Position numbers and translations under genes: made by a program. Under the pieces are notes generated by a model. That model had not been told where the DNA came from. It saw nothing but the letters and a program-made list of their open reading frames with translations, and searched no databases. 64,000 nucleotides of DNA from Cupriavidus necator N-1 (GTDB lineage Bacteria; Pseudomonadota; Gammaproteobacteria; Burkholderiales; Burkholderiaceae). Below, one piece after another: positions 40,762-46,174 of the stretch. The stretch covers positions 1,674,001 through 1,738,000 of the forward strand of contig NC_015723.1 in NCBI RefSeq assembly GCF_000219215.1, read 5' to 3'. Numbering within the stretch: position 1 is the first letter of the stretch; the number at the start of each line of letters is the position of its first letter.

Positions 40762-42048
40762 CTATTGCCCGCCGCCGTGCCGCAGGAAGTCCACCTGCGC
40801 CGGCCGGCCAGGCAGGTCCAGCGCGGCCATCGCCGGGGGCGTGCTGGCGATGGACTTGCCGGCACGCAGTACCCGCAGGCGCGTGGCGCGCAGGCGGATC
40901 GCCTCCACCGGGTCGCGCGCCTGCAGCAGCACCAGGTCGGCGCGGCAGCCAGGCGCCACGCCGTAGGCGTCCAGCCCCAGGATCTGCGCGGGCGTGGCGG
41001 TCACCGCGGCAAAGCAGGCGCGCATGGCCTCCTGCCCGGTCATCTGCGCAACGTGCAGCCCCATGTGCGCCACTTCCAGCATGTCGCCGGAGCCGAGGCT
41101 GTACCACGGATCCATCACGCAATCGTGGCCGAACGCCACCCGCACGCCGGCCTCCAGCAACTCCGGCACGCGCGTCATGCCGCGGCGCCGCGGATAGGTA
41201 TCGTGCCGCCCCTGCAGCGTGATGTTGATCAGCGGATTGGCGATCGCCGCCACGCCGGCCTCGCGCATCAGCGGGATCAGCTTGGACACGTAGTAGTTGT
41301 CCATGGAATGCATCGAAGTCAGGTGCGAGCCCGCCACCCTGCCCTGCAGGCCGAGCCGGACGGACTCGCTGGCCAGCGTCTCGATATGGCGCGACAGCGG
41401 GTCGTCGCTCTCGTCGCAATGCATGTCGACGCGCAGGCCGCGGTCCGCCGCCAGTTCGCACAGCAGCCGGACCGATTCGGCGCCCTGCGCCATGGTGCGC
41501 TCGAAATGCGGGATGCCGCCGACCACGTCGACGCCCATGTCCAGCGCGCGCTTCAGGTTGTCCAGCGCGCCGGGCGCGCGCAGCACCCCGTCCTGCGGGA
41601 ACGCCACCAGCTGCAGGTCCAGGTAAGGACGCACGCGCTCGCGCACGTGCAGCAGCGCCTCCACCGCCAGCAGCCGCGGATCACACACGTCCACATGCGA
41701 GCGGATCGCCAGCAGCCCGCGCGCCACCGCCCAGTCGCAATAGGCCAGTGCGCGCTCGACCAGCGCTTCCTGCGTCAGCATCGGCTTGAGCTCGCCCCAC
41801 AGCGCAATGCCTTCGAGCAGCGTGCCCGACTGGTTCACGCGCGGCAGACCGTACGACAGCGTGGCGTCCATATGGAAGTGCGCATCGACGAACGGCGGCG
41901 TCACCAACTGGCCGGCCGCATCGATCTCCTCGGCGGCGCGTGCAGCCAGTGCCGGCTCAACCGCGGCGATGCGGCCTGCGGCAATGCCGATATCGATGTC
42001 GGTGCGCCCGTCGGGCAGGTTGCAATGCCGCAGGATCAGGTCGAGCAT
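40762..42048 (-). CDS. codA: Cytosine deaminase-like amidohydrolase
   Basis: Metal-dependent amidohydrolase of 428 residues resembling CodA, which turns cytosine into uracil. Metal and catalytic motifs are DAHFHMDATL (HxH), the Glu/His of DMHCDESDDP, SHLTSMHSM, and the Asp in GHDCVMDPWYSLG. It is the last gene of the uracil-catabolic operon after the TetR gene (76-bp gap), so feeding cytosine-derived uracil into the URC route is the natural role. Other deaminases of this family act on isoguanine or related bases, so substrate is inferred. Length is normal. Confidence 0.82.
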   Translation of the reverse strand: MLDLILRHCNLPDGRTDIDIGIAAGRIAAVEPALAARAAEEIDAAGQLVTPPFVDAHFHMDATLSYGLPRVNQSGTLLEGIALWGELKPMLTQEALVERALAYCDWAVARGLLAIRSHVDVCDPRLLAVEALLHVRERVRPYLDLQLVAFPQDGVLRAPGALDNLKRALDMGVDVVGGIPHFERTMAQGAESVRLLCELAADRGLRVDMHCDESDDPLSRHIETLASESVRLGLQGRVAGSHLTSMHSMDNYYVSKLIPLMREAGVAAIANPLINITLQGRHDTYPRRRGMTRVPELLEAGVRVAFGHDCVMDPWYSLGSGDMLEVAHMGLHVAQMTGQEAMRACFAAVTATPAQILGLDAYGVAPGCRADLVLLQARDPVEAIRLRATRLRVLRAGKSIASTPPAMAALDLPGRPAQVDFLRHGGGQ

Positions 42049-42124
42049 GGGGGTCTCTCAGGCAGCAGGCACGGCGATGTTCTCACGGCGCCGGCTCGGG
42101 CGCCACGGTGGGCGGGTCCAGGCG

Positions 42125-42817
42125 TCATACGCGCCGGTCGGGCGCCGCAGGCTCGGGCTCGAGTCCGCAGCCGCGCAGCAGCAGCGCCACCAGGTGCTCG
42201 GTGGCCTGCGCATAGTCCTGCTGCTTCAGCTGGCTGACGCCGAGCACCGCGCATACCTGCGACTCGAAATCCGCATAGGTCTGCGTGGCCGCCCAGATCG
42301 TGAAGAACAGGTGCTGCGGGTCGACCGGCGCCATCTGGCCGCGGTCGATCCACTGCTGCACCACCGCCGCCTTGCGCGACACCAGCTCGCGCAGCACCTG
42401 CCGCAGGACCTCGCCGATCTCATGCGCGCCGTGCAGCAGTTCATTGGCAAATACGCGCGATGCATCCGGATGACTGGCCGACAGCCGCATCTTGGCGCGG
42501 ATGTATTGTTCCAGCGCCACCTGAGGCGGCAGCTCGGCGCGGATGATATCGGTCTCCGACAGCCACAGCTGCAGCGTATGCGCCAGCACGGCGCGGTACA
42601 GCGCCTGCTTAGTGCGGAAGTAGTAATGCAGGTTGGACTTTGGCACGCCGGCGCGCATTGCGATCTCGGCCATGGTGGCGCCGGCAAAGCCCGCGCGCGC
42701 GAAGACATGCTCGGCCGCGTGCAGGATCATGGCCTGGTTCTCCTGCCGGATGCGCCCGCCCGGGGCATCGCACGCGGGTAGCGGGCGCCGCGCCGTGGCG
42801 CTGGCGGGCGCGTCCAT
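42125..42817 (-). CDS. TetR-family regulator, RutR-like
   Basis: Protein of 230 residues with an N-terminal helix-turn-helix (GFAGATMAEIAMRAGVPKSNLHYYFRTKQALYRAVL) and a C-terminal domain in the style of E. coli RutR (ELPPQVALEQYIRAKMRLSASHPDASRVFANELLHGA and FTIWAATQTYADFE). RutR senses uracil or thymine. Its start overlaps the upp stop by one base (TGATG), so it is inside the operon it controls. A palindrome matching the RutR consensus lies at 46159-46174 in front of the operon. This gives strong context for pyrimidine-responsive repression. Confidence 0.87.
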   Translation of the reverse strand: MDAPASATARRPLPACDAPGGRIRQENQAMILHAAEHVFARAGFAGATMAEIAMRAGVPKSNLHYYFRTKQALYRAVLAHTLQLWLSETDIIRAELPPQVALEQYIRAKMRLSASHPDASRVFANELLHGAHEIGEVLRQVLRELVSRKAAVVQQWIDRGQMAPVDPQHLFFTIWAATQTYADFESQVCAVLGVSQLKQQDYAQATEHLVALLLRGCGLEPEPAAPDRRV

Positions 42818-44898: not shown

Positions 44899-46133
44899 TC
44901 GTTCAACCCCCTGCCCTTTGCCAGGGCCAGTTCGTTCGCATCCGGCGGCGTGTAGTGCGTAAAGTAGCCGGCGGCCACCTTGGCATCGATCTCGACACGG
45001 GCATCGGCGGGGATCAGGGCCTCGGGGATGGCCACCTGCTCGACCACCTCGATGCCCTGCGCCACCAGCGCGCCATGCTTCATGTTGCTCATCGACGCCC
45101 AGCGGTCGATGCGGCGGATGCCCAGCCAATGGAACACATCCGGCATCAACTCCTGGAAACGCATGTCCTGCACGCCTGCCACGCATTCGGTGCGGGCAAA
45201 GTAAGTCTCGGCACGGTCGCCGCCCACCTGCCGCTTGCGGGCGTTGTAGACCAGGAACTTGGTCACCTCGCCCAGCGCGCGGCCCTCCTTGCGGTTGTAG
45301 ACCACCAGCCCGACACCGCCCTGCTGCGCCATCTCGATGCACACCTCGATGCCATGTGCCAGATACGGCCGGCAGGTACAGATGTCTGACCCGAACACAT
45401 CCGATCCGTTGCATTCATCGTGCACGCGGCACGCCACGCGGGTCTCGGGCTTGCCCAGCTGGCTGACGTCGCCGAAGAAGTACAGCGTCATGCCGCCGAT
45501 GGGCGGAAGGAACACCTTCAGGTCCGGCCGCGTCACCAGTTCCGGGAACATGCCGCCGGTCTGCTCGAACAGGCTGCGGCGCAGCACGCTTTCCTTGATG
45601 CCGAAACGGGCCGCCAGCCCGGGTAGGTACCACACCGGGTCGACCGCCGCCTTGGTCACCCGCACGTCGCCATTGGCATGGAGGATGTCGCCGTCGGGCT
45701 TGAGCCGGCCGGCCGCAATGGCCGACACCAGCTCCGGCATGTTGATATGCGCACGGGTGACGGCGATGGTCGGGCGAATATCCACGCCGGCCGCGATGCG
45801 GTCGGCAAAGACGGTGGAAACCAGGTGGCCCCAGGGATCCAGCGAGACAATTTTCTCCGGGTCGCCCCATTGCGGATGCGGCCCAATGGCTTCCGCCGGC
45901 GCGGTATCGGTCAGGTCGGTGCGATGGTCGCGCTGCAAAGCGCCCGCGGCAACCGCCAGGGCCCGGTAGATGGCGTAGGCGCCAGCATGAGTGCCGATCA
46001 CATTGCGCTGTGCCGGATTCGCCAGGCTGGCGATGACCGGCCCGCGCTCGGCCGCCGTGGGGGCGCCCCAGTGGATGGGCTCGGCCGGCTTGTCGCGGCG
46101 TGCGTGTGAGGTGAGGACGATATGGTCGGACAT
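44895..46133 (-). CDS. URC1-type GTP cyclohydrolase II homologue
   Basis: Protein of 412 residues. The C-terminal 210 residues resemble RibA; zinc cysteines are kept (DECNGSDVFGSDICTC, same spacing as in RibA), but the substrate loop is VVYNRKEGRALGEVTKF instead of RibA YLRGHEGRGIGL. The N-terminal 180 residues (IHWGAPTAAERGPVIASLANPAQRNVIG onward) are absent from RibA and typical of Urc1. In yeast Urc1 is required for uracil catabolism and is thought to open a uracil nucleotide ring. The gene heads the operon; the start at 46133 has GAGGG upstream. A RutR box lies 26 bp before it. Confidence 0.9.
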   Translation of the reverse strand: MSDHIVLTSHARRDKPAEPIHWGAPTAAERGPVIASLANPAQRNVIGTHAGAYAIYRALAVAAGALQRDHRTDLTDTAPAEAIGPHPQWGDPEKIVSLDPWGHLVSTVFADRIAAGVDIRPTIAVTRAHINMPELVSAIAAGRLKPDGDILHANGDVRVTKAAVDPVWYLPGLAARFGIKESVLRRSLFEQTGGMFPELVTRPDLKVFLPPIGGMTLYFFGDVSQLGKPETRVACRVHDECNGSDVFGSDICTCRPYLAHGIEVCIEMAQQGGVGLVVYNRKEGRALGEVTKFLVYNARKRQVGGDRAETYFARTECVAGVQDMRFQELMPDVFHWLGIRRIDRWASMSNMKHGALVAQGIEVVEQVAIPEALIPADARVEIDAKVAAGYFTHYTPPDANELALAKGRGLNE

Positions 46134-46158
46134 GGCACCCTCGGTTCCCGATGGAATC

Positions 46159-46174
46159 CTGACCAAATGGTCAG
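46159..46174. promoter_or_regulatory. RutR-type operator of the urc operon
   Basis: CTGACCAAATGGTCAG carries TGACCA-N2-TGGTCA, the core of the E. coli RutR consensus TTGACCANNTGGTCAA, with perfect dyad symmetry. It lies 26 bp upstream of the urc1 ATG, in position to block transcription. With the RutR-like gene in the operon it makes a feedback loop. Confidence 0.8.

Follow-up and report, generated by a model that had tools for sequence, protein, structure and literature searches.

A URC-type uracil catabolism operon of Cupriavidus necator N-1 with a RutR-type operator and a predicted sigma-54 promoter

In a stretch of 64,000 nucleotides of the Cupriavidus necator N-1 genome (RefSeq assembly GCF_000219215.1, contig NC_015723.1, positions 1,674,001 to 1,738,000; hereinafter the window, the positions of which are used throughout), five minus-strand genes form a predicted operon for uracil catabolism (URC). 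These are urc1 (44895..46133, 412 amino acids), urc4 (43576..44898, 440 amino acids), the uracil phosphoribosyltransferase gene upp in the role of Urc6 (42817..43503, 228 amino acids), a RutR-like tetR gene (42125..42817, 230 amino acids) and the cytosine deaminase gene codA (40762..42048, 428 amino acids). The stop codon of urc1 overlaps the start codon of urc4 (ATGA), and the stop of upp overlaps the start of tetR (TGATG). Urc1 matches NF005536 with 797 bits (cut-off 403) and contains PF12471 and PF00925; Urc4 is a DUF1688 protein (PF07958, 464 bits); Upp scores above the cut-offs of NF001097 and TIGR01091; and CodA matches NF005748 above its cut-off, with 830 bits. The five genes, both overlaps and a RutR-type palindrome without mismatches, 26 bp ahead of urc1, had been proposed in a preliminary description of this DNA, and family matches, coordinates and sequence bear all of them out. 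The operon had also been called complete, which holds for the core trio Urc1, Urc4 and Upp, whose joint presence we use to recognize a URC operon; genes for urea handling fall outside that scope.

On sequence grounds, Urc1 is probably a GTP cyclohydrolase II homologue of the UTP-cyclohydrolase type. A phmmer search against the PDB retrieved the entries 7ej3 and 7eev (E 3.3e-190), which their depositors label GTP cyclohydrolase II and which we take to come from the study of UTP cyclohydrolase by Zhang and others (ACS Catal 2021). That study appears among the references of PMC12507026. For Urc4, several homologues carry the source name URC4/urg3 family, no solved relative was detected by sequence up to an E value of 5, and the open-licence papers on DUF1688 are, by their titles, fungal. 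As outlined in PMC7530994, the products of yeast URC1 and URC6 convert uracil to 3-hydroxypropionate and ribosylurea via uncharacterised steps and URC4 converts ribosylurea to urea; even for yeast, that account treats the steps of the route as incompletely characterised.

The best NCBIfam match of the regulator is TIGR03613 (RutR), its C-terminal domain matches PF08362 with 177.8 bits (cut-off 25), and a RutR structure in the PDB is retrieved with an E value of 1.5e-44. E. coli RutR contacts uracil through W77, Y97, W167, Q171 and Q179 and DNA through K52 and K62, according to the contacts given in PMC10891134; all seven are identical in the regulator (W85, Y105, W175, Q179 and Q187; K60 and K70). 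All 12 URC rows of our tree set retain the uracil contacts and the DNA lysines, as do all 23 rows of a clade found beside ATP-binding cassette (ABC) transporter genes, described below. The genome holds only one close RutR relative, and the next TetR protein is 26% identical. The nearest relatives of the regulator belong to Cupriavidus, with 98% identity to the protein from C. necator UYPR2.512. In a midpoint-rooted tree of 41 of 67 rows (nine regulator hits were dropped because they contained stops or were too short, and every fourth Cupriavidus row was kept), the regulator belongs to a clade of betaproteobacterial sequences that excludes E. coli RutR; several long rows, among them L057, L058 and L195, may stand in the wrong place.

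The putative operator is the 18-bp palindrome CCTGACCATTTGGTCAGG (46158..46175), the core of which, TGACCA-N2-TGGTCA, occupies 46173-46160, the quoted 26 bp upstream of the urc1 ATG (46133). With up to two mismatches, the window contains six matches to this box (one exact and five with two mismatches; chance mean 1.49). The 16-bp form CTGACCANNTGGTCAG has a single exact copy in the 8.48-Mb genome, that of the urc site, and two copies with one mismatch, so that the regulator looks local. One mismatch from the RutR box is also CCGACCAGTTGGTCAG, at G000:C3:3230800-3230815 and in its counterparts; it is exact in 15 of 19 genus genomes and occurs in G066 and G068 among 12 others, and is perhaps a conserved coding sequence.

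Two further elements lie upstream of the box, and the preliminary description, right about the RutR box, had overlooked both. A predicted sigma-54 -24/-12 element, TGGCACAAAGGTTGC (46194..46208, minus strand), shares TGGCAC and TTGC with the RpoN motif TGGCACnnTTnTTGC given in PMC8743547. When the -12 is set at the final C of TGGCACAAAGGTTGC, the start is predicted at about 46182, which places the palindrome at about +8 to +25. Farther upstream, an NtrC-type dyad, GCACGCGATGCGTGC (46282..46296, about -114 to -100 and centred about 107 bp upstream of the predicted start), matches the GCAC-N7-GTGC core of the NtrC consensus TGCACCAnnnTGGTGCA (as listed in PMC8743547), with different inner bases. 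The combined NtrC and sigma-54 pattern occurs at two sites genome-wide, one of which is the urc promoter (control, 0), and the genome encodes an NtrC above the model cut-off.

All three elements are conserved in the genus. We detected urc1 in 58 of 60 genus genomes, including that of N-1 (in G047 in two pieces), with no match in G012 (54% complete) and G024 (97% complete). Promoters from 40 of these 58 genomes, our own included, all contain TGGCAY-N5-TTGC together with the box TGACCR-N2-TGGTCA, spaced by 35 bp in 35 promoters and by 32-34 bp in the other five; the search for the box before urc1 in related genomes, which had been suggested earlier, succeeded in all 40 of these promoters and, beyond the genus, in L057 and L058. 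In a profile of the regulator's relatives, a contig scan with the regulator yielded 66 loci, 37 of which (from Cupriavidus, with one record each named Ralstonia sp. and Burkholderiaceae bacterium) show the order urc1-urc4-upp-rutR, with urc4 adjoining urc1 and the box before urc1 in every case. The codA gene follows rutR in 36 of the 37, directly in 18 and about 5 kb on in 18 (in one of the latter, L136, the gap contains a Bmp-type ABC transporter), and the last locus is cut by the contig end. In the window, codA is followed by a transfer RNA gene (Rfam match, 40583-40666, minus strand), with a sigma-70-like promoter at 40734-40706.

A second promoter set consists of the window and 36 Cupriavidus-type loci and overlaps the 40-promoter set in species; L145, where the urc1 match is split in two pieces, was excluded from promoter counts, and the box is present there too. 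The sigma-54 element and the box occur in all 37 promoters; across their alignment, TGGCA, TTGC and the two box halves vary at one position only, base six of the left half. GCAC-N7-GTGC is found upstream in 29 of the 37 (mean 1.1 and maximum 4 in 100 shuffles) and in 35 of the 40-promoter set; the same halves at spacings of 5, 6, 8 and 9 occur in 0, 3, 0 and 0 of the 37, and at other spacings or inverted in 0 to 3. The distance from the dyad to the -24 T is 55, 65-66, 76-78 or 86-88 bp, with a single stray at 145. Such steps of about one helical turn would fit an enhancer that has to face the polymerase; the promoters share descent, and therefore the independent shifts of the dyad may number as few as three.

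Outside the genus, urc1 is patchy. It was found in none of 24 other sampled genera of the family (22 of 200 family genomes were positive, all of the same genus), in 16 of 399 order genomes (three of the genus), in 4 of 369 class genomes (one of the genus) and in 26 of 398 phylum genomes (three of the genus and three already counted), which gives 36 distinct non-genus loci. Gene context was available for 33 of these, and the promoters of all 36 were scanned. Where there is context, urc4 always adjoins urc1 (33/33), and a rutR-like gene follows upp in two loci, L057 and L058, both with a box near urc1; none of the 31 loci lacking an adjacent rutR has such a box. With up to two mismatches, boxes were seen in three of the 36 promoters, namely in these two and in one of the 31 (named as L069 and as L092), where a loose match falls within codA at a distance of 491 bp from urc1. 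Outside the genus, then, box and adjacent rutR go together. L057 has a relaxed sigma-54 element, TGGCATGGGAAGTGC, 31 bp upstream of its box. Proteins with PF08362 were found in 6 of 38 genomes searched (G024 and five of the 36 non-genus URC genomes), and upp is absent from the 15 kb of L066. Among ten proteins near the URC genes of five rutR-less loci, selected as frames by length alone and several of them without a family, no shared regulator was detected.

The other 29 of the 66 regulator loci have no urc genes within the stretch examined. In 25 of them, tblastn identified a relative of an NMT1-family ABC substrate-binding gene upstream of rutR (the family was tested on L184), and two, L171 and L184, additionally encode preT, preA, dihydropyrimidinase and amidohydrolase genes, with a box upstream of preT. 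Use of this regulator is thus broader than URC and extends to a wider clade beside ABC transporter or reductive-pathway genes. A sigma-54-like pattern, TGGC-N9-GC, lies 30-36 bp upstream of 21 of 104 box readings (27 of the 29 loci, both strands, up to two mismatches) and was met at 113 of 10,800 random positions; it had been picked after four such promoters had been seen. Of the 21 matches, that in L168 is probably due to chance, and the other 20 fall in 18 loci. All 18 transporter-gene sites have TCGC or TGGC at -12, not TTGC, and are only sigma-54-like; the two preT sites keep TTGC but have TGGCC at -24. We lean towards the view, although with considerable reserve, that a sigma-54 element with a RutR operator just past the start is a portable promoter module of betaproteobacteria acting as an AND gate, the downstream genes having changed from case to case (URC genes in Cupriavidus; in Comamonadaceae, those for an ABC transporter and the reductive pathway). 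Such a module would include an NtrC-type enhancer where URC follows, and its TetR-type repressor would block a sigma-54 promoter from the downstream side.

For the window itself, these features make it likely that the urc operon is a nitrogen-scavenging URC route for uracil under coincidence control, that is, an AND gate of nitrogen starvation and uracil. The upstream DNA suggests that expression of this rare uracil route requires both nitrogen scarcity and uracil, as in the chemically different pathway of E. coli. Under nitrogen limitation, NtrC bound at about -107 would activate sigma-54 RNA polymerase at 46208-46194. When uracil is lacking, the operon-encoded RutR-family repressor would occupy the palindrome at +8 to +25 and block open-complex formation or promoter escape; uracil, or cytosine after deamination by CodA, would then bind RutR and release it. 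Upp would make uridine monophosphate, Urc1 would act on the nucleotide by opening its pyrimidine ring, and a ribosylurea product would yield urea through Urc4, the enzyme roles following the literature on yeast and on the enzymes. What we observe are the genes, the operator, the sigma-54 element and the NtrC-type dyad, how these are conserved and spaced, and the retention of ligand- and DNA-contacting residues; binding, activation, repression and flux are inferred from them.

Several observations count against this scheme. The regulator scores below the RutR cut-offs (196.5 bits against 368 for TIGR03613 and 176.1 against 230 for NF011584). The sigma-54 case depends on conservation among related, non-independent genomes: TGGCACAAAGGTTGC lacks the inner TT of the RpoN motif, and TGGCAY-N5-TTGC occurs once in the window, with 0.67 occurrences expected by chance. 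In L058, the box overlies a sigma-70-like promoter (read by eye), which indicates that sigma-54 is not essential to the pairing of RutR with URC. The dyad differs from the E. coli NtrC consensus in its inner bases, is absent from 8 of 37 promoters and could be used by another enhancer-binding protein. Finally, a second, everted dyad, GGTGC-N4-GCACC (46315..46328), is conserved and lies outside the scheme; its form GGTGC-N4/5-GCACC is found in 19 of 37 promoters (shuffle mean 0.1, maximum 2), 107-120 bp upstream of the -24 element.

The imperfect, occasionally missing dyad and five further NtrC-family matches below the cut-off in the genome would suit an operon in which RutR control is real but the sigma-54 promoter uses an enhancer-binding protein other than NtrC, or in which there is no nitrogen control; we consider this unlikely, given the agreement of the dyad with the core, GCAC-N7-GTGC, of the NtrC consensus in the literature and the pairing of NtrC with RutR in E. 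coli rut. It is less probable still that the operon has a sigma-70 promoter under RutR repression and that the sigma-54-like bases are fortuitous. The L058 promoter and the chance expectation of the element speak for this; however, the element is kept 32-35 bp from the box in all 40 genus promoters, a strict sigma-54 element within 500 bp was found in none of the 36 URC loci outside the genus, and a simple scan revealed no sigma-70-like promoter upstream of urc1. Equally little credence goes to pyrimidine salvage accompanied by a spare riboflavin GTP cyclohydrolase II in place of uracil catabolism. Both upp and codA encode salvage enzymes, and the structural relatives of Urc1 are labelled GTP cyclohydrolase II; yet Urc1 fails both RibA models (55 against a cut-off of 148 and 42 against 206) and lies far above the cut-off of its own family, although NF005536 is likewise named GTP cyclohydrolase II. 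A RibA-like frame exists separately (24322-24720, minus strand; G000:C1:1698322-1698720; 35% identity to the C-terminal part of Urc1), and urc4 adjoins urc1 in all Cupriavidus-type and all distant loci with context.

If coincidence control by nitrogen and uracil is accepted, the bacterial URC route gains a regulator, together with predictions of its inducer and of the conditions for growth, all directly testable. Among the open-licence papers listed, no title or abstract describes a RutR- or sigma-54-controlled URC operon, although an earlier prediction may exist, and none concerns uracil catabolism in Cupriavidus. RutR regulons of Proteobacteria, likewise comprising RutR and pyrimidine catabolism, have been reconstructed for 68 genomes in 13 groups (PMC5343134; RegPrecise); the string urc is absent from the main text of that paper, and a prediction for the urc operon may exist in RegPrecise or the supplements.

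Within the genus, G024 lacks urc1 and encodes rutA, rutB and rutF above cut-offs (L190, 8802-18014), with a Bmp-type ABC transporter downstream of the rut operon. Its rut-adjacent RutR is 39% identical to the urc regulator and clusters with E. coli RutR (support 86/69 for these two by themselves and 98/95 when L195 is counted in), which indicates that regulator and pathway changed together; a swap of pathways under the same regulator in G024 is accordingly rejected. The order is also E. coli-like, with a one-mismatch box 68 bp upstream of a sigma-54-like element, and a second box, with two mismatches, lies near another such element at L190:14343. Recruitment of the urc regulator from a Rut operon is rejected as well, given its clade apart from both E. 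coli RutR and this same-genus, rut-adjacent RutR. Of the preliminary proposals, that of a RutR-family regulator with a matching operator is upheld by the retained contacts and the 40 of 40 genus promoters, and that of RutR reuse on URC gains from the pairing of box and rutR outside the genus (2/2 against 0/31), although a Rut operon does not look like the source of the regulator. Among 36 genus genomes searched, RutA scores above the cut-off in G024 alone and PreA in none at E 1e-60, so that URC, compared with the RutA and PreA routes, appears to be the ordinary way in which the genus handles uracil.

The yeast URC genes are under other regulators. The Lachancea kluyveri system (URC1, URC4 and URC6, as described in PMC7530994) shares Urc1, Urc4 and a uracil phosphoribosyltransferase with the present one, which differs in being organised as a bacterial operon, in including codA and in encoding a TetR-family repressor of its own. 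E. coli rutABCDEFG shares the control elements: a RutR-family repressor with the same uracil contacts, a RutR-type box, a sigma-54 promoter and an NtrC-type site; it differs in its Rut monooxygenase enzymes, and the two regulators belong to different clades. This likeness suggests that a mode of regulation can persist when the pathway under it is replaced. In the E. coli rutA region, TGGCATCCGCTTTGC lies 44 bp before the ATG. A RutR box with three mismatches begins 79 bp farther up than the -24 T and has a relaxed NtrC-like site immediately above it, so that it stands between these two elements; the urc box, by contrast, begins 35 bp on the downstream side of the -24 T and beyond the predicted start. 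Two operator geometries can thus be compared, one upstream beside the enhancer, as in E. coli rut, and one downstream of the start, as in urc.

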